Assembly (NCBI GenBank): GCA_024644655.1
Contig: JAHEHJ010000018.1
Span: 1-33,132, forward strand
Direction of reading: 5' to 3'
DNA from: Flavobacterium sp.
GTDB lineage: Bacteria; Bacteroidota; Bacteroidia; Flavobacteriales; Flavobacteriaceae
Length of the DNA stretch: 33,132 bases
Shown: positions 17,386 to 33,132 of the stretch, piece after piece
Position numbering within the stretch: position 1 is the first letter of the stretch
Layout: each line of letters starts with the position of its first letter
Position numbers and translations under genes: made by a program
The notes under the pieces: generated by a model
Databases searched by the model: none
Seen by the model: only the letters and a program-made list of their open reading frames with translations
Told to the model about the DNA's origin: nothing

Positions 17386-19338
17386 ATGAAAAAATCAGTA
17401 GGTTTAGCAAGTATCGTTTTCTTGCTAACAACCAATGCGTACACGCAAATCAAAGACTCTCTTCGAGCAACTGCCTTAGATGAAGTGGTGGTGTCGGATA
17501 CCAAATTTGCTCAAAAACCAGAACGGTCGGGTAAAGTAATCGCTGTAATCACCGCTAAAGAATTAGCCCAAAAAGAAGGGCAAAGTTTGGCCAATGTGCT
17601 TTCTCAAATTGCCGGTGTTGAGGTCAACGGAAATCAATCGGCCAATGGTAAAAATTTAGGGTATTACATCAGAGGGGGAAAGAACCGTCAAGTACTGATA
17701 CTCATTGATGGCATCCCAGTAACAGACGCCTCAGGAATTAGTTTGGAATATGACTTGCGCCTTCTCCCTGTAGAACAAATTGAAAAAATCGAAGTCATGA
17801 AAGGGGCCTCGAGTACCTTGTGGGGTACAGGTGCAGCCACAGGAATCATCAACATCACCCTTAAAAAGGCTTCTAAAAAATGTGCTCAAGGAAATGTATA
17901 TATAAATAGTGGTTCTAATGCCACCGCATCCCAACATGCCTATAAAGGACAAGATTTTAATCAAGGGGTTTCGCTTACAGGGACCTGTGATAAAATCACC
18001 TATTTCGCCGGACTAAATAGTACGGAAACCAATGGAATGTCCCAAATTGCGGCTCCAACTTCCAACCAAACCTATGAAACAGATCGCTTTTCTAGACAAA
18101 ACATGGTAACGAAATTGGGCTATAAAATGGCATCGCATTGCACTATCGATGTGTTTGGTAATTACGACCGTGTCAAAAATCAATATGATTTTCCGTTTGA
18201 TAATACAGGTAACTACGATACACCAATTAATAATTCAACTTCAGAACAATTTCGCTTAGGGATTACACCTAAGTTCAACTACCATAAAGGGGAATTAGTG
18301 GTGCAAACAGGATTTACCAAAATCACTCGAGAGTATAAGGAATTCAATACCTATAGTCAGGTAGTGGATATCTCCAATTATGCTTCCCGAAACGTGGTTT
18401 TAGAAGCCTATAATAAATATGCTTTTACCGATGCTTTCTCTATGATTATAGGAGTAGACTATCAGTTCAACGACATGAGTAGTGCTACGCCTTATGAGCA
18501 AACGAATCGTGACCAACTCAAGCAAAATGTACTCGATACGTATGTGAATTACAGTTACAATCTAGAGTGGGGTTTTAATTTGAATACCGGTATCCGATTG
18601 AATAATCACAGCAGTTATGGAAATAATTATGTGGCCAATTTTAACCCATCCTATGTGTTTAAAACTACCTTTCCTTTAAAGGTACTTGCATCGTATAGCA
18701 CGGCTTATATTACGCCGAGTTTGTACCAGCTTTATGGTCAGTATGGAAATGTAAATTTGACTCCCGAACAAAATGCTACTCTAGAAATGGGTTTCGAAAC
18801 GGGCTTACCTTCCAAAAAAGTAAAATGGAATACGGTTGCTTTTTACCGCGATGAAACCAATTCAATTGGCTTTTATTTTGATTCTATTACCTATGCTTCC
18901 TATTATGTTAATACCGTTGGAACTCATAAAGCCAAAGGAATTGAAACTGATTTGAGTGTGGCCCTGTCAGACCAATTGCAAGTGTCGGCCAATTATACCT
19001 TTACCCAAGTGGATGAAGCATTAAATCGATTGATTCCCAAGCATAAGACCAATGCCAATATCAATTACACTCCTACAAAACGTAGCTACTTTAACGTGAG
19101 TTATCAGTATTTTGATGCCCGAAATGATGCGTTCTTTGACGGGAATACCTATGCCACTACTGTGGTGAAATTAGGCTCATACCAATTGCTGAATGCGACA
19201 GCCAAATACGAACTAATCCCAAAACGATTGACTGTTTTTGGAGCAGTTACCAATATCTTTAATGTAGATTTTGTCGAAAATGTGGGATATGCCACACGAG
19301 GGCGCAATTTTAGATTGGGATTGAACATTCAATTATAA
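17386..19338 (+). CDS. btuB: TonB-dependent vitamin B12 receptor, BtuB type
   Basis: A 650-residue outer-membrane receptor. Residues 1-20 are a signal peptide (cut near AYTQ); a TonB-box-like LDEVVVSD is at ~30. The plug domain spans ~40-160 (LANVLSQIAGVEV, IRGGKNRQVLILIDGIPV, QIEKIEVMKGASSTLWGTGA), followed by a 22-strand barrel. Its short length lacks the CarboxypepD-like N-terminal extension of SusC proteins and fits BtuB. Control by a cobalamin riboswitch and proximity to btuFCD support corrinoid uptake. The protein ends NIQL rather than in an aromatic residue. Confidence 0.9.
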   Translation: MKKSVGLASIVFLLTTNAYTQIKDSLRATALDEVVVSDTKFAQKPERSGKVIAVITAKELAQKEGQSLANVLSQIAGVEVNGNQSANGKNLGYYIRGGKNRQVLILIDGIPVTDASGISLEYDLRLLPVEQIEKIEVMKGASSTLWGTGAATGIINITLKKASKKCAQGNVYINSGSNATASQHAYKGQDFNQGVSLTGTCDKITYFAGLNSTETNGMSQIAAPTSNQTYETDRFSRQNMVTKLGYKMASHCTIDVFGNYDRVKNQYDFPFDNTGNYDTPINNSTSEQFRLGITPKFNYHKGELVVQTGFTKITREYKEFNTYSQVVDISNYASRNVVLEAYNKYAFTDAFSMIIGVDYQFNDMSSATPYEQTNRDQLKQNVLDTYVNYSYNLEWGFNLNTGIRLNNHSSYGNNYVANFNPSYVFKTTFPLKVLASYSTAYITPSLYQLYGQYGNVNLTPEQNATLEMGFETGLPSKKVKWNTVAFYRDETNSIGFYFDSITYASYYVNTVGTHKAKGIETDLSVALSDQLQVSANYTFTQVDEALNRLIPKHKTNANINYTPTKRSYFNVSYQYFDARNDAFFDGNTYATTVVKLGSYQLLNATAKYELIPKRLTVFGAVTNIFNVDFVENVGYATRGRNFRLGLNIQL

Positions 19339-24146: not shown

Positions 24147-24596
24147 TTAGATATTGAAATATTTTTTAGGAACGTTGAGCATCCCAAAACATTCTCCATC
24201 TTCTTTACCCAAATGTTTGTGATGTATTTTGTGAGCTTTACGTAGCCCCACAAAGTATTTGATTTTAGTTTTTGAAAACCATTTAATGCGTTGGTGTATG
24301 ATGATTTCATGAATGAAGAAATACGCCATTCCATATAACAAAATACCCAAGCCAATAAAGAATTTATAATTTAAAGCGGGGTTCACACCATAGTAAAACA
24401 AGAGGATACTGGGTATAGCAAAAATCACAAAGAACCAATCGTTTTTCTCGAATATTGAAGTATATCTAGGTTGGTGATGGTCTTCATGCAAATACCAAAG
24501 GAAACCATGCATCACATATTTGTGAGTTAACCAAGTAACCATTTCCATACACAAAAAGGTAACCGCTGTACTGATAATATAGATAAGATACGTCAT
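24147..24596 (-). CDS. crtZ: Beta-carotene hydroxylase CrtZ
   Basis: A 149-residue membrane di-iron hydroxylase of the fatty acid hydroxylase superfamily. The four histidine clusters are intact: HKYVMH (25-30), HEDHH (37-41), HEIIIH (96-101) and HKIHH (122-126). Three or four membrane helices separate them. It adds 3-hydroxyl groups to beta-carotene rings to make cryptoxanthin and zeaxanthin. Its ATG shares one base with the crtB stop (TAATG). The length is at the short end of the CrtZ range but complete. Confidence 0.92.
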   Translation of the reverse strand: MTYLIYIISTAVTFLCMEMVTWLTHKYVMHGFLWYLHEDHHQPRYTSIFEKNDWFFVIFAIPSILLFYYGVNPALNYKFFIGLGILLYGMAYFFIHEIIIHQRIKWFSKTKIKYFVGLRKAHKIHHKHLGKEDGECFGMLNVPKKYFNI

Positions 24597-25432
24597 TATA
24601 TAGCGTCTAATTGAAATTTAACATAAGATTTGCCAATGATGAATAGCTTATTGAAATCGGCTACTCGTATGCGTTTGTTCATGATTTCTTCGCTTCGTGT
24701 TTTCTTGATTTTGTGCAATAAGCTAAGGTAATATTTATAGGCTATAAAGACACCTAAACGGGATTCTTTAGGAAGATTTTTAATTCCGATTAAGGCACTT
24801 CTAAAATCAGCTTCTATTTCTGCTACTATATCCTTTTTGTCTTCATTGTTAAGCGTACTCAGATTCACATTAGGAAAATAGATTCTCCCCAAGGTTTCAA
24901 AGTCATGTTTCATGTCTCTTAAGAAATTGACTTTTTGAAAAGCAGAGCCCAGTTTCATGGCGTTGTGCTTTAATTCGTCATATCGCTTACGGTCACCATT
25001 CACAAATACAAGTAGACACATTAACCCAACTACATCAGCAGAACCAAAAATATATTCTTCATATTCCGCTTGTGTGAGGTATTCTTTTTTGACCAAATCC
25101 ATGCGCATACTTTTGAAAAAAGGGTTAACTAAATCCATCATATCATAGCGTATAACCACATCTTGAAAGGCATTTAAGATAGGGTTAAGGCTTATTTTTC
25201 GCGTTATTGCTTTATGTAAATCGGCTTCAAATTCGTCTAGTAATTCTACTTGATTGTATTCATGAAACGTATCTACTATTTCATCGGCATAGCGAACAAA
25301 TCCATAAATGGCATATATGTCATTTTGAATTTTTGGAGCCAATAATTTAATTGCTAAGGAAAAGGAGGTACTGTATCTTTTGGTTACTCTTTTACTGCAT
25401 TCTAAAGAGGAGATGTCAAATAGTTCTTTCAT
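24596..25432 (-). CDS. crtB: Phytoene synthase CrtB
   Basis: A 278-residue trans-isoprenyl diphosphate synthase that joins two geranylgeranyl diphosphates into phytoene. Both Asp-rich Mg2+ motifs are present: DEIVD (50-54) within YAIYGFVRYADEIVD, and DMKHD (173-177) within NFLRDMKHD. Tandem position with crtI and crtZ favours phytoene over squalene synthase. It overlaps crtI by four bases (ATGA) and crtZ by one, so the three are coupled. Confidence 0.93.
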   Translation of the reverse strand: MKELFDISSLECSKRVTKRYSTSFSLAIKLLAPKIQNDIYAIYGFVRYADEIVDTFHEYNQVELLDEFEADLHKAITRKISLNPILNAFQDVVIRYDMMDLVNPFFKSMRMDLVKKEYLTQAEYEEYIFGSADVVGLMCLLVFVNGDRKRYDELKHNAMKLGSAFQKVNFLRDMKHDFETLGRIYFPNVNLSTLNNEDKKDIVAEIEADFRSALIGIKNLPKESRLGVFIAYKYYLSLLHKIKKTRSEEIMNKRIRVADFNKLFIIGKSYVKFQLDAI

Positions 25433-26889
25433 AGTTTACATTCTTTACTGATTTTATCACTAGCTATTTTTCCTGAAATTAAAGCTGGAGGGACACCAGG
25501 CCCTGGCACTGTAAGTTGGCCAGTAAAATAGAGGTTGGACACTTTTTTGCTTTTTATTTTGGGTCTAAGAAATGCGGTTTGCGTTAGTATATTGGCTAAG
25601 CCATACGCATTTCCTTTATAGGAGTTGTAGTCATTTTTAAAGTCATTGACACAAAAGGATTCTTTACATACAATATGGTCACGCACCGATTGGTTAGTGA
25701 GCTTTTCAAATCGATCCATAATGGCATTGAAGTAGCGCTCTCGTATCTCGGGTGTATCTTCTAAGTCAATCGCTAATGGAATTAAAAAGGTAGCCGCTTC
25801 TCCATGTTGTGGTGCAAAGGAATCATCTGTTTTTGATGGAAAGCTGGCATAGAATAATGGGCTTTTAGGCCATTGTTTAGTATCGTATATCTCTTTGGCA
25901 TGTTCCACAAAATCGGTGTCAAAAAACAACGTATGGTGGTTTACATGCTCTATTTTTTTATTAAAGCCTACATAAAACAATAGGGATGAGGGCGCAAATG
26001 TTTTGGAATTCCAATAGCTCTCTGAATATTGTCTTTGGTGTGGAGCCAATAAAGTTTCTGTAAAATGGTAATCAGCACCACTTAGCACAATATCAGCAGG
26101 AATGGACATGCCATTTACCCGAAGACCTACGGCTTTTCCTTTACGAACATTAATTTTTTCCACAGTAGCATCCACGTGAAATCGAACACCCAATTCTATG
26201 GCTAATGCTTCCATGGCTTCAACGACTTGATACATGCCTCCTTTTGGGTGCCATGTGCCTAATCCAAAATCGGCATAATTCATAAAATTGTAAAAACCAG
26301 GGGTGTTTGAAGGTTTAGCTCCTAAGAACAATACGGGAAATTCTAATATTTGTTGGAGTCTGTAGTTTTTGAATCTTGATTTTACCGAACGACTTATCGT
26401 TGTAAAGAATTGAGAAACTTTTAAGGCTGTTTGGAGCGTGATTAATTCAAGTATAGAATCGCCAGGACGGTATACCAAGTTTTTGATGGCAATATTGTAA
26501 TTGGATTCGGCTTCTTTGATGAATTTCAGCAATTTAGAACCACTGTTTTTTTCAATGGACTCAAAAGTTTGTGCTATTTCACTTAGGTTATCGGCAATTT
26601 CAACCGAGTCATTTTCAGCAAAATACACTTTATAGGCAGGAGATAGCTTGTCTAATTGGTAATAATCAGATGATTTCTTGCCAAAATCAGCGAAGAATTG
26701 GTCAAAAACATCGGGCATCCAATACCATGTTGGGCCAATATCAAATTTAAACCCTTTGGTTTCTAATACTCGGGCTCTACCACCAATACTGCTGTTTTTT
26801 TCAAATACGTCTACCTCATAGCCCGCTTTTGCTAGATAGCAGGAGGCGGCTAAAGAGGAAAATCCAGAACCAATAATAGCTACTTTCAT
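25429..26889 (-). CDS. crtI: Phytoene desaturase CrtI
   Basis: Read from ATG at 26889: 486 residues, the usual CrtI length. The N-terminal FAD-binding motif GSGFSSLAAS (7-16) is followed by the GGRARV segment, and the C-terminus carries the CrtI signature TVPGPGVPPALISGKIASD. It desaturates phytoene to lycopene at the membrane. The upstream reading to 27012 runs through the promoter and has no homology, so it is rejected. The start is only about 18 bp downstream of the -7 box, so the transcript leader is very short. It is the first gene of crtI-crtB-crtZ. Confidence 0.93.
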   Translation of the reverse strand: MKVAIIGSGFSSLAASCYLAKAGYEVDVFEKNSSIGGRARVLETKGFKFDIGPTWYWMPDVFDQFFADFGKKSSDYYQLDKLSPAYKVYFAENDSVEIADNLSEIAQTFESIEKNSGSKLLKFIKEAESNYNIAIKNLVYRPGDSILELITLQTALKVSQFFTTISRSVKSRFKNYRLQQILEFPVLFLGAKPSNTPGFYNFMNYADFGLGTWHPKGGMYQVVEAMEALAIELGVRFHVDATVEKINVRKGKAVGLRVNGMSIPADIVLSGADYHFTETLLAPHQRQYSESYWNSKTFAPSSLLFYVGFNKKIEHVNHHTLFFDTDFVEHAKEIYDTKQWPKSPLFYASFPSKTDDSFAPQHGEAATFLIPLAIDLEDTPEIRERYFNAIMDRFEKLTNQSVRDHIVCKESFCVNDFKNDYNSYKGNAYGLANILTQTAFLRPKIKSKKVSNLYFTGQLTVPGPGVPPALISGKIASDKISKECKL

Positions 26890-26895
26890 TTGTTT

Positions 26896-26934
26896 GTTTT
26901 GTTTAACAAATATAGTGTTAAACTTAAACAAAAC
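26896..26934. promoter_or_regulatory. Nested inverted repeats over the crtI promoter (operator candidate)
   Basis: Two perfect inverted repeats share almost the same centre. The outer one is GTTTTGTTTAA (26896-26906) with TTAAACAAAAC (26924-26934). The inner one is GTTTAACA (26901-26908) with TGTTAAAC (26916-26923). Together they span from the -33 element to the probable start site, a position suited to repression by the nearby MerR/CarH-type protein. Confidence 0.6.
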
Positions 26935-26938
26935 AAAA
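26907..26938 (-). promoter_or_regulatory. crtI promoter
   Basis: On the minus strand TTTTG (26938-26934), exactly 19 nt and TATATTTG (26914-26907) match the Bacteroidota consensus perfectly. Transcription should begin near 26900, 10-12 nt before the crtI ATG. Confidence 0.82.
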
Positions 26939-27025
26939 TAAATATGTACTCTTATGCTTTTTAAGTGAGAGTAAAGATTTTCTTGTAAAGACAAAGCATA
27001 GAGCTCAAACATTAAATTGGTATAA

Positions 27026-27075
27026 AGAAAAACTCCATTATGCTTCTTACTCTAGTGATGAAGCATAATGGAGTT
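27026..27075 (-). terminator. Terminator of the five-gene operon
   Basis: A perfect 16-bp stem AACTCCATTATGCTTC / GAAGCATAATGGAGTT (27031-27046 with 27060-27075) has a 13-nt loop. On the minus strand the stem is followed by TTTTTCTTTAT, giving an intrinsic terminator 22 bp after the last stop codon and separating the operon from crtI. On the plus strand no T-run follows. Confidence 0.82.
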
Positions 27076-27096: not shown

Positions 27097-27714
27097 TTAT
27101 TTGATATGGGATAATCCTTCTTTCGCTGAGGTGTCTAATGGCTTGTTGAGCAATACCCTGTTAAACAATTCTTTAGCTTCATTAAATTTGCCAAGGAAAT
27201 AATAATTCCAAGCACTCATAAGCATGGCATCATAATCAAATGGATACAGATTTAATGAAGTAGAAAAATATTTATCAGCTTTAGCATAGTCTTTTCGGTT
27301 GTAATAAATTTGGCCTAATCTAAAATTCACCAAACTGTTTTGGGTGTCATTTTTCAAAATGGATAAGTAGGTTTGTTCTACATCATTCCATTTGTTTTGA
27401 GCAGCAAGCGGATTTACCAGTCCGTTTAAAGCTTCTACTGAAGCCGGCATTAATGCAGCAGCTTTTTTATAAGCAAGTACTGATTCGTCGTATCTTTTTC
27501 CTTGATAATACAACCATCCGAGTCTTAACTGAACAGGGTAATTGTCGTTTGCATTCAAATTCTTTAAAGATTCTATGGCCTCATTGTATTTTAATCCTGT
27601 TTCTAATACATAACTTTTGCTAAAAGCATCTTGTAGTGCTTTTTGGTCTTGTGCTGTAACAAATTGTATCCCTAGTAAAAGGGCAACAACTACTGATTTT
27701 TTTAAAATTTCCAT
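27097..27714 (-). CDS. Periplasmic TPR protein
   Basis: A 205-residue protein with a Sec signal (MEILKKSVVVALLLGIQFVTAQ) followed by about five tetratricopeptide repeats (LRLGWLYYQGKRYDESVLAYKK, VNFRLGQIYYNRKDYAKADKYF and AWNYYFLGKFNEAKELF are typical, cited as landmarks). It is probably a periplasmic scaffold. Its start lies 13 bp inside the end of the barrel gene, and it is the last gene of the operon. No enzymatic motif is seen. Confidence 0.87.
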   Translation of the reverse strand: MEILKKSVVVALLLGIQFVTAQDQKALQDAFSKSYVLETGLKYNEAIESLKNLNANDNYPVQLRLGWLYYQGKRYDESVLAYKKAAALMPASVEALNGLVNPLAAQNKWNDVEQTYLSILKNDTQNSLVNFRLGQIYYNRKDYAKADKYFSTSLNLYPFDYDAMLMSAWNYYFLGKFNEAKELFNRVLLNKPLDTSAKEGLSHIK

Positions 27715-29015
27715 GTGATTTTCGTTTTGATTAAATTATAAGTATAAGTAAATTGGTTTGTTTGTACCGTAGTTGGATTCAAAGTATTGGAATAGGTACC
27801 TTCCCTTTGTTGTAGTATATAGCCCAAACTGAAGTCTACTTTTTTAAAATAGAAATTCAAATTTGAACCGGCATACCAATTGATTTTATTGGGCGTGTTG
27901 AAGGACAAGATTCCCCCTTCTGCTAGATAATTTTGATGATTACCAGTAGCGCCATAGCCTTCTAACCATATTTTTTCCGATAACTTAACGCCTATTAATT
28001 GGGAGTAAATGGTATTATTTTCGAATTCATTTGAGACTAATGCTATTTTCGTATTTCCATAAAATGCTAGATTACCAAATGGGAAATAGGTTAAACCAGC
28101 TTCTGAAATATAATTTTTAGTTTCAGACAAATTGGAATAACTAAAGGCTATAGTAGGTTCCATATAATGAAAATGTCTTCCTATAGCGATACTTCCAGAA
28201 TAATTGCTATTGGTTGTTTTTTGAGTGATAATTGTATTGGGTATTGGGAACGGTGGTGCTATGGTATAGGTAATATAACTAGAATAATAACCTCCTGTCC
28301 CAATAGCGATATTCCACTTATTATAGGTATACTGCAAAACGGAGTTCCATTGGTAATAACTACTCGAATCAGAAATATCTAGTTTTGAATTATTAGGAAG
28401 CGTGGTTTGAATTAATTCGTGGTAGGAGTTAGTGGCGAAAGATACATAATTGGTCCATCTCAATTTTGGGTTGAGTTGGGATATAAATGTAAGATTTGCA
28501 AACTGTACATCATTATAAAAGGTTCCTTGGCTATTAGTATAAGGAGCCGAAATGTTTTTATATTTAAAAGCACTGTAATTGTTCGTATTTAACATTCCAG
28601 CTTCCAAAGAAATGGATTCAAAAATTGAAGTCTTATAGCCCATTTTATCTTGTAATTCTTGAGGTAATTTTTGGGCTAAAACAAGAGCACTTGCTTTTTG
28701 ATTGCTAAATAGGTATGCGTAATACAGATACTCTGCAAGAGCCATGTCTGAAGCATCAGTAGCATATGCCTTTTCAAAATGAGTCGCTGCCATTTCGTAG
28801 TTGTGGGAGTTGTAATAGGCAATTCCTAGTCGATAGCGCAACAGATAAAAATCGATATTGTCGTGAAGCGCTTTCGTTCCAATTTCTTTAATTGTTTTGA
28901 AATCACTTTTTAGATACGCATCATAGGTCAATGCATCTACTTGGTCAGCCGTTACATTTTGAGCATTGCTTTTACAAACAAAAAAGAAAACTATAGTTAA
29001 GAATAAGGTTCGCAT
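27702..29015 (-). CDS. Outer-membrane beta-barrel with N-terminal TPRs
   Basis: A 437-residue protein. Residues 1-18 are a signal peptide (cut near SNAQ). Residues ~22-125 hold two or three TPR-like helical hairpins (RLGIAYYNSHNYEMAATHFEKAY). Residues ~135-437 form alternating amphipathic strands rich in Tyr, Asn and Ser, ending KTKITWKF with the terminal Phe of outer-membrane proteins. It is probably a 14-16-strand pore or anchor, with the TPRs in the periplasm able to meet the TPR protein encoded next. It overlaps its upstream neighbour by 19 bp and its downstream neighbour by 13 bp. No specific family is recognised. Confidence 0.82.
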   Translation of the reverse strand: MRTLFLTIVFFFVCKSNAQNVTADQVDALTYDAYLKSDFKTIKEIGTKALHDNIDFYLLRYRLGIAYYNSHNYEMAATHFEKAYATDASDMALAEYLYYAYLFSNQKASALVLAQKLPQELQDKMGYKTSIFESISLEAGMLNTNNYSAFKYKNISAPYTNSQGTFYNDVQFANLTFISQLNPKLRWTNYVSFATNSYHELIQTTLPNNSKLDISDSSSYYQWNSVLQYTYNKWNIAIGTGGYYSSYITYTIAPPFPIPNTIITQKTTNSNYSGSIAIGRHFHYMEPTIAFSYSNLSETKNYISEAGLTYFPFGNLAFYGNTKIALVSNEFENNTIYSQLIGVKLSEKIWLEGYGATGNHQNYLAEGGILSFNTPNKINWYAGSNLNFYFKKVDFSLGYILQQREGTYSNTLNPTTVQTNQFTYTYNLIKTKITWKF

Positions 29016-31192
29016 TCTATAAGGTATTGGATTTGAGAAGTCGTATTGTGAATTGTAATGGTTTTTGTTGGATCTATAGTAATAGTATACCGGGTTTCAA
29101 ATAATGATTTCCGCATTATTTCAGTATGGTATTTGCTCTCAATTGTGATTTCATTAGGCTGAATTATATTGTCAATTTTTAGGGACTTTGATACCTGTTT
29201 TACTTTCATGAAATTATAAATTGGAGCTATAATATCATTTAATGTTTTAAGTCCAAATGGAGTAAAGAAATGATTGGGCAAGAGATTTTCCATTTGGATA
29301 GTTGGATAATAGCCCAATAAAACGGAATAACACGATTTATAAAATTCAAATAGACTGGAATTCGTTTTTCCTTCATACTTCTCAAAGGTGAATAAAGTCC
29401 CATCATTTTTATAGTATAATTTGCTATTGGTTTGCTCACAATAAAAATACAACTGATTGTATTCATTCGTTACGATATCAAAATAGTCGACTTTATGGGA
29501 TTTGCTATTGGTGATTTTTAATCGATTGTTAGGCAAAAAGGTAAATGAATTTAACAGTAGGGGTATTACTTCCACATTACTGATTGTGCTTCCTACGACT
29601 GGGATTTCATTGATTTTTAATTCCATTGTACTCGAATGGTGTTCGATGAAATAGGAAAGAGGAAGCGGTACTGTTTTTGCCCCAAAAACAGGATAATGCT
29701 GGTTTTGGAAATGAATATGAGGTTCGGGTGAACGACCAGAATTTCCACAGGTAGCCACTAGAGTTCCTTTCTTAATATAATCACCTATAGCAACGGTAAA
29801 ACTGTCTTTTTTGATGTGACTAATTTGTGTATACAATCCGTTCAAGTGGTTTATGATAATTGAGTTCCCCCAATTTTCATCCACATTTACTGTATTGATT
29901 TCATTGTCTTCTACATGGTTTATGATATCATAAACATAGCCATCTGCTGGGGCTACAACGGGCTTGTTGTAGCAATAAAAATGGTCTAGTTTTTGGCCCC
30001 GATTTCCAAAAGTATTTTCGTTTTCATCTTGAATGACAAAATCTAATGCCTTTCCCCAATCGCCTAAATGGGTAATTTGACCATCATAGCCTTGGCTTAC
30101 ATACCATTCTCCCCAGAAAGGCAATACCATTTCATAATAGGGATTGGCTACTTTGCGTTGGGATTGGTGTAAATACTCATACAACGATTTCTCAGGTGAG
30201 TTATGAAAGATATTGGCTGGAATGATGTATTTGTATTCATGACGATGGTATAAAATATACAAGGTCATGGTTGTTAATAGGGAAAAGGATAACGACATGG
30301 AGTTCATTTGAAAAACAAATAAAACCTTGTTTAGGGTTATCATCAAAAACATCAATATGGGACTTAACAAAAAGACAAATACCATGGAATACTTATTTGG
30401 GATGTAAAAAAAGCACCCCAAGGAAATGGCTAGAAATATAAAATTGGCCCCCGAATAAAAGTAATTTAAGTTATCTAGGTTTCCTCCCATGATGCTGTAA
30501 AAGAAATAGGCTGAATAAAACCCGATAAAGGAATAAACAACCATTATCCTTGAACAGTAAAACATCCCAGCTAAAATTAAGATGCCTGCTAGGACACTTT
30601 TTTGAAAAAACACTGTGGAAAGCGTGATTAAAAAAACATAAAAATGGTTTGGAATACTGATGGTATCTAAGCAATGTACCCATTGGTACCAACTATTTTG
30701 CTGAAGACTAACCAATGTATTCTGATGAAAAACATAATCCATGTTTATTTTAAATACCTCAAAATTACTAACCGCTAAAGCAATGATATTAGCCGTAAAA
30801 AAGAAAGGAATGGTTAAGAAGGGGAGGTGATAGCGATCAAAAAAGTTTTTACACCATACAATAATGATGACCGCTATTAAAACGGAAATAAAAAACAATC
30901 CCATAAAGTACTTATTGATCTCATAGCTGTATGCTATGGATATACCCGTTAGTACTGCATTGAATCCTAATAATCCGGATTTAATCAGTTTTTTGTCATA
31001 CCCTAGTTTGGCTAAAATAAAATGAAAACACAGCACAAAACACAATCCAACTAATCCAATTTTTGGCGTCATGAACGTTATGAAAAGCAACAGCAAAGCC
31101 AATATTTTGTTATTGGAAAACAAAATAATGCTATAACTGTTCAACGTGCTTTCAACCCAAAAATTGGATGCAATTGATTTAAGTATTTTCAT
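28997..31192 (-). CDS. Urea-transporter-like membrane domain fused to M23 peptidase
   Basis: A 731-residue fusion. Residues ~15-315 are about ten membrane helices resembling the urea transporter (SLC14/UT) family, with the half-repeat signature GLLGFNAVLTGIS (73-85) and LPFLTIPFF (123-131). Residues ~355-515 are an M23 metallopeptidase with an intact site: His375 in THLG, Asp384 in ALDF, His459 in ISHI, and His492/His494 in HIHF. This is the variant with eight residues between the first His and Asp. Residues ~515-731 are a beta-rich tail of unknown role. The peptidase probably faces the periplasm and acts on peptidoglycan or a peptide; urea as the transported solute is not certain. The gene sits 10 bp after the decarboxylase gene. 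Confidence 0.87.
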   Translation of the reverse strand: MKILKSIASNFWVESTLNSYSIILFSNNKILALLLLFITFMTPKIGLVGLCFVLCFHFILAKLGYDKKLIKSGLLGFNAVLTGISIAYSYEINKYFMGLFFISVLIAVIIIVWCKNFFDRYHLPFLTIPFFFTANIIALAVSNFEVFKINMDYVFHQNTLVSLQQNSWYQWVHCLDTISIPNHFYVFLITLSTVFFQKSVLAGILILAGMFYCSRIMVVYSFIGFYSAYFFYSIMGGNLDNLNYFYSGANFIFLAISLGCFFYIPNKYSMVFVFLLSPILMFLMITLNKVLFVFQMNSMSLSFSLLTTMTLYILYHRHEYKYIIPANIFHNSPEKSLYEYLHQSQRKVANPYYEMVLPFWGEWYVSQGYDGQITHLGDWGKALDFVIQDENENTFGNRGQKLDHFYCYNKPVVAPADGYVYDIINHVEDNEINTVNVDENWGNSIIINHLNGLYTQISHIKKDSFTVAIGDYIKKGTLVATCGNSGRSPEPHIHFQNQHYPVFGAKTVPLPLSYFIEHHSSTMELKINEIPVVGSTISNVEVIPLLLNSFTFLPNNRLKITNSKSHKVDYFDIVTNEYNQLYFYCEQTNSKLYYKNDGTLFTFEKYEGKTNSSLFEFYKSCYSVLLGYYPTIQMENLLPNHFFTPFGLKTLNDIIAPIYNFMKVKQVSKSLKIDNIIQPNEITIESKYHTEIMRKSLFETRYTITIDPTKTITIHNTTSQIQYLIECEPYS

Positions 31193-31202
31193 TCTAAAAA
31201 GG

Positions 31203-32564
31203 TTAATCTAATTGGAACGAAGATAAGTGTTCTGGTTTTCTTTCTGGTAATTCAATAGTGTCAATTGTTTCATTTTCACGAATAATATGAACTTCTCCTT
31301 TCAAATCAATCAAGACTACCTTTGGTCTCATTTGGATAAACTGCATCCATTGGGTCATATTATAGGCACCTACACGATGAACCACCACGTGATCTCCTGC
31401 ATTTAGTAGCGGCAATGATATGTTGTCATTCACCACGTCTATATTCATACAAAGCGGACCATAACAAACGGTTTCTTCCGTATGGTGGGAGAAATATTGG
31501 GCAGGTGAGATTTTATGGTTGTACCAAAATGCCGTAAATAAGATGTTTACTCCAAAGTCAAATATAGTAGCTCTTCTTCCGTCGCTTAAATTTTTATTGG
31601 CTATAACAGAACCCAGTAAATACCCTGCATCATCAATTAATGCTCTTCCTGTTTCCAGTATAAGTAGGGGTAATTCCTCCCGTTTAAATCCAAAATTCAG
31701 GATTGTATTGGTAATGGCTTCTGCATAATCATCAAACGAAGGTATTACGTCTGCTCCTTGCAAATAAGAGCCTTTTAGCGTATTGGCAGATGCAAAACCA
31801 CCACCAAGATCGATGTATTTAATCAAATGGCCCCATTTGATTTTGGTATGATTCACTAAGTCACATAATTTCCAAGCTGCTATAGCATAGGCATTGGCAG
31901 ATAACATATAGGTACCAATATGACAGTGTAAACCTTCTAATACCATTTCTTCATGCGACATGATTTTGTTGATAGCATTCCAAGCCTGACCGTTTTCATA
32001 ATTGAATCCAAATCTATCCCACATTGGATAAATCCCGGTATCCATATTCATTCGAATGGCCACACGCGCTTTTTTATCTTTACCTTCAAGCAAATCAGCA
32101 AGCATGTATAATTCGTCAAAATGGTCAATATGAATTAAGGAATTGTTTTCCACAGCTGTCAGCAAATCGTCTTTGGATTTCTCTGGACCATTAAAAATGA
32201 TTTTATCACCAGGAACCCCATTTCGCAAGGCTTTATTGTATTCAAAGATGGAAACGACTTCTGCCCATGATCCTTCTTGATGGAATACATTACACACCGC
32301 ATTGATGTAATTGGTTTTGTAACTCCAGGCAAATTGTACTTTTGGATAGCGCGTTTTAAAAGCACGCATCGCATTTTTATAAGTAGAGCGAATGGTTTTT
32401 TCACTAATTACAAATAGAGGAGAGCCATAGTCTTGAATCAATCCCTTTACAGAAACACCATCAATTTGGTCTACAGGTCCGTATTCAGTTCGTGTTCCAA
32501 ATTTGTTCATGCTCCCGGTATTCAACTGTTGGATAAACGGGCGTTCGTATGTTTTTTTTGACAT
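31203..32564 (-). CDS. Fold-type III PLP-dependent amino acid decarboxylase
   Basis: A 453-residue member of the diaminopimelate/ornithine decarboxylase family. Lys83 in SYKTN is the predicted PLP lysine. Further motifs are HCHIGT (213-218), the phosphate loop GGGF (254-257), ETGR (304-307, usually EPGR) and CYGPLC followed by Asp376, in which Cys372 completes the partner active site of the dimer. The C-terminal tail is extended. Its context with an ATP-grasp ligase and not lysine genes argues for a pathway-specific decarboxylase rather than LysA. The substrate is unknown. The ATP-grasp gene ends 11 bp upstream. Confidence 0.87.
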   Translation of the reverse strand: MSKKTYERPFIQQLNTGSMNKFGTRTEYGPVDQIDGVSVKGLIQDYGSPLFVISEKTIRSTYKNAMRAFKTRYPKVQFAWSYKTNYINAVCNVFHQEGSWAEVVSIFEYNKALRNGVPGDKIIFNGPEKSKDDLLTAVENNSLIHIDHFDELYMLADLLEGKDKKARVAIRMNMDTGIYPMWDRFGFNYENGQAWNAINKIMSHEEMVLEGLHCHIGTYMLSANAYAIAAWKLCDLVNHTKIKWGHLIKYIDLGGGFASANTLKGSYLQGADVIPSFDDYAEAITNTILNFGFKREELPLLILETGRALIDDAGYLLGSVIANKNLSDGRRATIFDFGVNILFTAFWYNHKISPAQYFSHHTEETVCYGPLCMNIDVVNDNISLPLLNAGDHVVVHRVGAYNMTQWMQFIQMRPKVVLIDLKGEVHIIRENETIDTIELPERKPEHLSSFQLD

Positions 32565-32575
32565 GTTTTTAGTGT

Positions 32576-33132
32576 TTAAAATTCTCCTAATGTGCTTATT
32601 TTTTCAAAATCCTTCATGGAGACAATTAAGTCTTGTGAATATCGGATGAACAATTTCCCCGATTCGTATTTTTTTTGAATTTCGGTGGGTTGGTCTAAGG
32701 CAATATTCAATAATGATTCGGGATGGTTTTGTCCACATCCTTTTGCCAAATAGACCCATGCTGGAAATCTTGGATTCATTTCGAGCAAGTAGTATATGCC
32801 TTCTTTACTTTTTATGAATTCCAATTCACAGCCCCCTTTCCATTTGGATTTTGAAATAACGGAATGTGCGATTTCTATGAGCGTATCATCTTCTAATGAA
32901 ACTCCTGCCCAAGCTTTTCCTTTATCGGTAATGTATAATTTACGCATCGGAACTGCTCCAATACAGTTTCCCTTGCCATCGCCTATAGCTGTTATATTAA
33001 CTTCGTTTCCTGTAACAAATTGTTGGATGATAATGGGTAATCCCCATTTGGCACTTATTTTATGAAAGTAATTCATGGCCTGCTCAGGAGTGGCCGCAAT
33101 AGAAGCATCATAAAATTTGCCTTTTACTACTA
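32576..33132 (-). CDS. ATP-grasp ligase (partial, cut by right edge)
   Basis: The frame is open to the right edge, so the start and N-terminal part are outside the window; 185 residues are visible. They begin with VVKGKFYDAS, a strand and Lys that bind ATP in ATP-grasp enzymes, and end with the Mg2+/ATP motif CELEFIKS ... YYLLEMNPRFPAW (Glu and Asn ligands). This resembles the carbamoyl-phosphate synthase-like ATP-grasp group that forms amide or peptide bonds between small carboxylates and amines. The Met at 33076 is an internal codon, not the start. Role inferred: ligase for the product of the adjacent decarboxylase pathway. Confidence 0.85.
   Translation of the reverse strand, partial: VVKGKFYDASIAATPEQAMNYFHKISAKWGLPIIIQQFVTGNEVNITAIGDGKGNCIGAVPMRKLYITDKGKAWAGVSLEDDTLIEIAHSVISKSKWKGGCELEFIKSKEGIYYLLEMNPRFPAWVYLAKGCGQNHPESLLNIALDQPTEIQKKYESGKLFIRYSQDLIVSMKDFEKISTLGEF

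Follow-up and report, generated by a model that had tools for sequence, protein, structure and literature searches.

The last 6 kb of a contig from Flavobacterium sp. (GenBank assembly GCA_024644655.1, contig JAHEHJ010000018.1; 33,132 nucleotides, here called the window) carry an operon in which genes for an ATP-grasp ligase and a decarboxylase are followed by genes for three envelope proteins. We propose that this operon is part of a conserved six-gene unit for the synthesis and export of an amide-type product, and give this proposal a probability of about 0.38. The support for it is sequence-based: the gene set itself, its co-inheritance, the predicted folds, the intact residues of an M23 peptidase domain, and an unrelated enzyme pair that stands in for the original one in some genomes.

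All five genes of the operon lie on the minus strand. The first encodes the C-terminal 184 residues of an ATP-grasp amide-forming ligase (32576..33130; PF15632), its 5' end being cut by the contig end. It is followed by the genes for a pyridoxal phosphate-dependent decarboxylase of 453 residues (31203..32564; Pfam Orn_Arg_deC_N), whose nearest solved relative is FigC/FslC; a 731-residue fusion of a urea-transporter-type channel and an M23 peptidase (28997..31192; Pfam UT and Peptidase_M23, predicted fold); a 437-residue TPR-barrel outer-membrane protein recognized from its structure model (27702..29015); and a 205-residue TPR protein expected to be periplasmic (27097..27714; TPR_2). The last two have signal peptides as judged by eye. 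In this order the genes are separated by gaps of 11 and 10 bp and then overlap by 19 and 13 bp. An intrinsic terminator on the same strand (27031..27075) consists of a 15-bp perfect inverted repeat (arms 27061-27075 and 27031-27045) with a 15-nt loop and a TTTCTTT tract on the minus strand; its hairpin has a folding energy of -25.4 kcal/mol (z -7.86). A simple scanner overlooked it because only loops of 3-8 are permitted there. The operon ends at the terminator, since a phytoene desaturase gene that passes its cut-off lies past it on the same strand. The five genes with their gaps and overlaps, and the strong terminator, are thus as an earlier note on this DNA had described them, the domains being confirmed by Pfam. 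The same note called the unit a five-gene operon. All five genes are present, but in relatives a gene for a PqqD-type protein lies upstream of the ATP-grasp gene, and the unit is one of six. The window covers the whole contig, whose end falls within the ATP-grasp gene, so the operon is truncated and its own PqqD-type copy would lie past the contig end; the remainder of the ATP-grasp gene was found in none of the other contigs of the assembly.

A scan of the collection with the fusion gave 172 relatives. The best 80 of the 172 were examined and, with the window and two further loci (L024 and L025), make up 83 loci, some of them near-duplicates (e.g. L066, L067 and L078). By their titles the relatives belong to Bacteroidota, except L096 (Chlorobiota) and two metagenome bins titled as other phyla (L028 and L036). 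All six genes stand in one order at 56 of the 83 loci, and at three more, the window included, five genes are ordered and the sixth is cut off. The decarboxylase is present in an incomplete set at 11 loci, eight of which are cut by contig ends and three of which are true exceptions. At the other 13 this decarboxylase is missing near the fusion: L025, L044 and L052 offer hardly any DNA upstream; L102, whose downstream side is cut, lacks the decarboxylase in its 2.1 kb of upstream sequence; and the remaining nine form the set tested for enzyme substitution. Contig ends cut 15 of the 27 loci that fall short of the full six-gene order.

Co-inheritance was also seen among 296 evenly sampled Bacteroidota genomes. 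The fusion (E 1e-60 or better) is found in 27 of them and the decarboxylase (E 1e-80 or better) in the same 27, the two lying about 0.7 kb or less apart by coordinates. Within the genus of the window, 3 of 37 genomes (its own genome counted) have a full-length fusion. As judged from gene content, the operon is patchy in distribution and mostly kept whole. The neighbourhood comparison that had been suggested as a check on whether the genes stay together therefore shows a unit kept across the phylum. The mean pairwise identity over 54 complete six-gene loci is 67% for the decarboxylase, 61% for the ATP-grasp ligase, 47% for the PqqD-type protein, 45% for the TPR protein, 40% for the fusion and 23% for the barrel protein.

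Several local variants of the operon were noted. A second TPR gene copy directly follows the first in L031, L035, L040, L056 (541 bases after), L073, L076 and L086. A gene for a 902-residue protein is inserted between the TPR and barrel genes in L041 (11246-13954), and three genes are inserted between the decarboxylase and the fusion in L095 (2895-4732). The same place in L096 (6964-8007) is taken by a membrane acyltransferase (HGSNAT/Acyl_transf_3), and proteins alike to it by eye lie near the operon in L034, L041 and L056. In the genome sample, one fusion match is in two pieces with an internal TGA (G064, contig C1, 2246024-2248182), and contig C1 of G181 has a second partial fusion match together with a second decarboxylase at its start.

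The chemistry of the unit is suggested by its decarboxylase. The protein matches Orn_Arg_deC_N with 106.7 bits (cut-off 23.4), and its nearest solved structure is the N-citrylornithine decarboxylase FigC/FslC (7kh2, E 4e-77), followed by diaminopimelate decarboxylase (1twi, 4e-57) and then BtrK (2j66, 9e-37). It scores below the cut-offs of both the FslC model NF041039 (228.2 bits, cut-off 500) and the LysA equivalog TIGR01048 (210.5 bits, cut-off 297.9). The catalytic cysteine is followed by methionine in 31 of 31 aligned decarboxylases, as in FigC (C354, M355), the residue in 1twi being glutamate. According to the accessible part of the FigC study (PMC7857480), docking predicts stacking of M355 on the aliphatic portion of the ligand, the enzyme acts on an amino acid that is already amide-linked, and it groups with SbnH, AcsE, MccE and BtrK, apart from the polyamine enzymes. 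The nearness to FigC/FslC suggests that the product is an N-acyl or peptidyl aminoalkyl amide.

The ligase that would form such an amide is about 350 residues long in relatives, and the window fragment is 82% identical to residues 169-352 of the 352-residue L023 protein. Both the fragment and the L096 relative match ATPgrasp_Ter (PF15632; 37.0 and 36.3 bits, cut-off 29.1), a domain of Ter-associated biosynthetic operons. The fragment and the full-length L096 protein fall in ATP-grasp-type families, with no match to IucA/IucC at E 0.1, and the L096 protein scores 12.5 bits against the graspetide MvdD-type ATP-grasp model TIGR04184 (cut-off 475).

Replacement of the two enzymes in some genomes gives a second view of the chemistry. 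Among the nine fusion loci with no adjoining decarboxylase of the original type, seven are from genomes that lack the original enzyme (best matches 1e-10 to 1e-21, and no match in one genome), and each of the seven has instead an Orn/Lys/Arg-type decarboxylase of about 910 residues. The other two, L057 and L068, have the original decarboxylase elsewhere in the genome and no substitute. In six loci (L032, L034, L039, L041, L042 and L101) the substitute gene is oriented divergently to the fusion gene, from which a gene for a 145-residue protein separates it; the seventh genome (L033) carries the set on a different contig (L112). The 145-residue protein has no family match, and a similar protein of L111 matches Glyoxalase. 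A different ATP-grasp gene follows the substitute decarboxylase in five of the six adjoining loci, L042 being cut; the copy of L032 scores above the PRK06524 cut-off, and the other copies cluster with it. The loci with the substitute pair retain the exporter genes. As an unrelated decarboxylase and ATP-grasp pair replaces the original one, the envelope genes travel with chemistry of this type.

Relatives of the substitute pair also occur in three clusters from genomes that have no fusion (L109, L110 and L111), together with a GABA (gamma-aminobutyrate)-type transaminase, a carbon-nitrogen hydrolase, a C45-type hydrolase and an aldehyde dehydrogenase, the families being named from L111. These clusters might represent an unnamed polyamine route through acylated diamines, and the presence of such relatives in putrescine/GABA-type clusters fits acylation of a diamine. 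We infer that the original pair would ligate and then decarboxylate, that the substitute pair would decarboxylate and then ligate, and that both would arrive at one product class. Rhizoferrin, which according to the accessible part of PMC7857480 is made with or without free putrescine, provides a precedent for both orders.

In all 61 ATP-grasp loci that have upstream DNA, the gene for the PqqD-type protein is found upstream of the ATP-grasp gene; for the remaining four of the 65 loci with an ATP-grasp gene, including the window, upstream DNA is lacking. The PqqD-type gene mostly overlaps the ATP-grasp gene or sits at most 50 bases away, the distance being 160 bases in L053 and 1089 in L056. 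The encoded proteins have a median length of 82 residues. The L104 copy matches PF05402 with 38.7 bits (cut-off 23.4), as is expected of a recognition element for ribosomally synthesized and post-translationally modified peptides (RiPPs), and the profile of the family is closest to the lasso-peptide RiPP recognition element (RRE) TbiB1 (E 8e-13).

The invariable presence of this protein raises the possibility that the operon encodes a RiPP or other peptide-carrier pathway, in which the PqqD-type protein would bind an unlinked leader, the enzymes would build a decarboxylated C-terminal amide, and the M23 domain would be the leader peptidase. C39 peptidase domains are leader peptidases of this kind in peptidase-containing ATP-binding cassette (ABC) exporters, and the M23 domain is predicted to be cytosolic (see below). 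The related decarboxylase MccE takes part in microcin C7 maturation, and BtrK acts on carrier-bound glutamate (PMC7857480, accessible part). However, small open reading frames (ORFs) clustered over the 1.5 kb 5' of the PqqD-type gene in 61 loci gave no set present in more than five loci, those downstream and between the enzyme genes gave none in more than three, and several of the sets resemble, by eye, shifted frames of other genes. The EF-hand-like secreted family, the widest small family upstream, was considered as a general precursor and rejected, as it occurs at 8 of the 83 loci. Furthermore, the PqqD-type gene is absent from every examined locus that has no ATP-grasp gene, though the exporter genes are still there in the loci with the substitute pair. 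A peptide-carrier pathway of this type is therefore a minority possibility, although a serious one.

The third protein of the operon is the most unusual. Residues 1-345 of the fusion form a urea-transporter-type channel (UT PF03253, 134.3 bits, cut-off 25) that matches the full-length urea transporter fold with Z 32-33 (3k3f, Z 32.5 over 315 residues). Residues from about 343 to 530 form an M23 zinc-peptidase domain (PF01551, 52.6 bits, cut-off 28.7), the model of which matches M23/LytM domains with Z 12-15 (5j1l, Z 14.6), and the part from about 530 to 731 is beta-rich. The zinc and catalytic residues H375, D384, H459, H492 and H494 are retained in 82 of 82 full-length fusions. The spacing between the first two is longer than in the usual HxxxD motif of M23 enzymes.

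An intact M23 domain with outer-membrane and periplasmic partners could be taken to mean that the enzyme opens the peptidoglycan for an envelope-spanning channel and that the ligase and decarboxylase make a cell-wall substituent. The side of the membrane on which the domain lies bears on this point. The urea transporter fold comprises ten membrane and two pore helices (PMC10541013, accessible part), so that both termini lie on one side. In the fusions, lysine plus arginine number on average 8.9 on the side of the termini versus 2.8 on the opposite side, with the bias present in 82 of 82 sequences, and acidic residues number on average 2.3 versus 6.3. The termini of UT-B are cytosolic. No extra membrane segment precedes the M23 domain. 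A disulfide between C407 and C482 of the M23 domain was considered and rejected: in 15 of the 82 one cysteine is missing while the other remains, and in two both are missing. The complete UT fold, the charge bias and the cysteines, which are mostly lost singly, thus led us to drop a periplasmic location, and the M23 domain is predicted to be cytosolic. Cell-wall modification by this domain, one of three roles offered in the earlier note, loses its basis with this placement, and remodelling of the wall by the operon is accordingly a distinctly unlikely explanation.

The other two envelope proteins could complete a path across the outer membrane. The model of the TPR-barrel protein (mean predicted local distance difference test score, pLDDT, 93.2) has a signal-peptide helix, seven TPR-type repeat helices and a barrel with 14 long strands. 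Its Pfam TPR matches are below cut-off (TPR_2 21.9, cut-off 27). The barrel resembles FadL/TodX, OmpG and CymA (Z 17.6-21, identity 7-12%), with no family assigned, the FadL/TodX-type import barrels being the best fold matches; BcsC is among the Foldseek matches. The TPR protein passes TPR_2 clearly (65.9 bits, cut-off 27). A trio spanning inner membrane, periplasm and outer membrane had been anticipated, with the M23 domain assumed to be periplasmic; the prediction places this domain in the cytosol.

The import-type barrel and the urea-channel fold would also suit uptake of a small nitrogen compound (urea, an amide or a polyamine conjugate), with the enzymes detoxifying or storing it. The residues of dvUT that we take to form the urea sites of the two halves are Gln24 and Glu187. 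The alignment equivalent of Gln24 is glutamine in 51 of 82 fusions and isoleucine in the window, and the equivalent of Glu187 is A, S, G or T in 80 of 82, Y once, M once and glutamate in none, so the urea site as such is not retained. The fusion scores 92.1 bits against the urea transporter equivalog TIGR03441, below its cut-off of 274.6. Moreover, an ATP-consuming ligase and a FigC-type decarboxylase look biosynthetic, and neither urease nor arginase was recognized among the recurrent neighbours (ten representatives scanned). Uptake thus appears very improbable.

By bringing these results together it is possible to outline how the proposed synthesis and export might proceed. The PqqD-type protein would present a peptide or another acyl partner to the ATP-grasp ligase, which would use ATP to couple the carboxylate of the partner to one amine of a diamino acid. 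The FigC/FslC-type decarboxylase would then strip the carboxylate from the amino acid to leave an N-acyl aminoalkyl amide. The M23 domain, on the cytosolic face of the channel domain according to the predicted topology, may trim the product. The channel would pass it into the periplasm, and the TPR protein together with the TPR-barrel protein would take it through the outer membrane. A more specific version, which we consider rather unlikely, is a new kind of exporter, in which a cytosolic M23 domain cuts a small amide loose from a peptide carrier bound to the RRE and delivers it straight into a urea-type pore. That the TPR-barrel partner completes the exit route, making the whole a passive, non-ABC counterpart of the peptidase-containing exporters, is to the same degree speculative. 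The joining of amide-type synthesis to envelope proteins claimed in the earlier note is borne out by a set kept together across the phylum, and of the three roles it offered the best match is export of a modified amino acid or peptide.

A number of observations weigh against synthesis and export of an amide by this unit. To our knowledge, M23 enzymes otherwise work outside the cytosol. The open pores of BtUT-B and DvUT measure 2.5 and 2 Å at the constriction (PMC10541013, accessible part), which is too narrow for a charged acyl-diamine unless the pore of the fusion is wider; the absence of glutamate from the Glu187-equivalent position may bear on this. As far as the small-ORF clustering tells, a linked precursor peptide is not widely shared, though the precursor may be unlinked or very divergent. 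Three loci depart from the common arrangement: the decarboxylase of L054 is split over two frames and has no adjoining ATP-grasp gene, L096 has no TPR gene, and the TPR gene of L104 lies upstream of the PqqD-type gene. In 3 of the 296 genomes, all outside the 27, the substitute ATP-grasp gene occurs without the fusion. The seven genomes that lack the original decarboxylase are draft assemblies of unstated completeness, and the source assembly of the window is 93% complete and 8% contaminated.

The genes upstream of the unit offer a hint of its control. Among the 83 clustered loci, the recurrent upstream neighbours are LytTR response regulators (24 loci), extracytoplasmic function (ECF) sigma factors (13), Spy-like proteins (12), AraC regulators (10), EF-hand-like proteins (8), GNAT acetyltransferases (8) and DUF2202 proteins (7). 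They differ by lineage and none is general. ECF sigma, anti-sigma-like, Spy-like, small EF-hand-like and Gly-rich secreted proteins recur upstream of the PqqD-type gene; such recurrences, with DUF2202 and AraC proteins, are seen at L049, L051, L066, L067, L073, L074, L078, L082, L084, L100 and others. The AraC regulators of L024 and L096 have a Cys-Cys pair near the N-terminus. From their families, these neighbours hint at stress or metal control. They could also mean that the product is a secreted metal-binding metabolite, similar to a siderophore or chalkophore and made under metal or envelope stress, and the nearness of the decarboxylase to the rhizoferrin enzyme would agree with this. Each type of neighbour is nevertheless present in a minority of the loci, the Spy-like protein matches Metal_resist with 16.8 bits, below the cut-off of 29.2, and no TonB receptor was recognized among the recurrent neighbours in the ten representatives scanned. 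We regard a metal-binding product as unlikely.

No riboswitch was found at 16 loci (Rfam, gathering thresholds). A function in anti-phage defence was considered and set aside, as four window proteins and two L030 proteins gave 0 PADLOC matches. Elsewhere in the window, carotenoid-type genes lie just downstream of the terminator (24596-27012), where a phytoene/squalene-synthase-like protein is below cut-offs, and a TonB-dependent receptor is encoded at 17386-19338, the nearest model being the vitamin B12 receptor with a score below cut-off.

If the proposed synthesis and export are correct, a conserved and widely spread biosynthetic-and-export unit is added to the large phylum Bacteroidota, together with a use of the urea-channel fold, fused to a peptidase, that is not known to us from elsewhere. 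The occurrence in some genomes of an unrelated enzyme pair with the same chemistry predicts to which class the product belongs, and a cytosolic M23 domain is a sharply defined prediction.

The earlier note knew of no characterized pathway with this gene set, and a literature search, to which most subscription papers were out of reach, likewise found no description of such a system. The closest known parallel is rhizoferrin synthesis by Francisella FigA/FslA and FigC/FslC, in which a diamino acid is first N-acylated by the ligase and then decarboxylated by a relative of the decarboxylase described here (PMC7857480, accessible part). The ligase there is a synthetase of the NIS type (NRPS, non-ribosomal peptide synthetase, -independent siderophore), in contrast to the ATP-grasp ligase here, and the accessible part of that paper mentions no urea-type channel, M23 peptidase or PqqD-type protein for rhizoferrin. 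Butirosin BtrK and microcin C7 MccE are likewise decarboxylases of the alanine racemase fold that act on a carrier- or peptide-bound group (PMC7857480, accessible part), and butirosin synthesis includes the ATP-grasp protein BtrJ (PMC4431377, accessible part). These systems depend on an acyl carrier protein or a precursor peptide, and the loci described here yielded neither. BtrJ is the ATP-grasp partner of BtrK. Puu-type polyamine catabolism is similar in that genes for a transaminase, an aldehyde dehydrogenase and hydrolases accompany the relatives of the substitute pair, but the ligase is of the PRK06524 type and the three cluster-bearing genomes are outside the 27 with the fusion.

Among peptidase-containing ABC exporters of the C39 type, the membrane protein that exports a modified product carries a peptidase domain in the cytosol; here the membrane part is a urea-transporter-type channel without an ATPase, and the peptidase is M23. 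The BcsC-type exporters share the order of TPR repeats followed by an outer-membrane barrel, but in the protein described here the repeats amount to no more than seven helices and the barrel has 14 long strands. The urea transporters dvUT and UT-B share the full-length fold of the channel (Z 32-33), from which the fusion differs by the added M23 domain, the loss of the glutamate at the urea site and a TIGR03441 score below cut-off. Because no known system was found to combine all of the features compared, the arrangement is, as far as sequence and predicted structure can tell, a new one, built from parts that are known folds.

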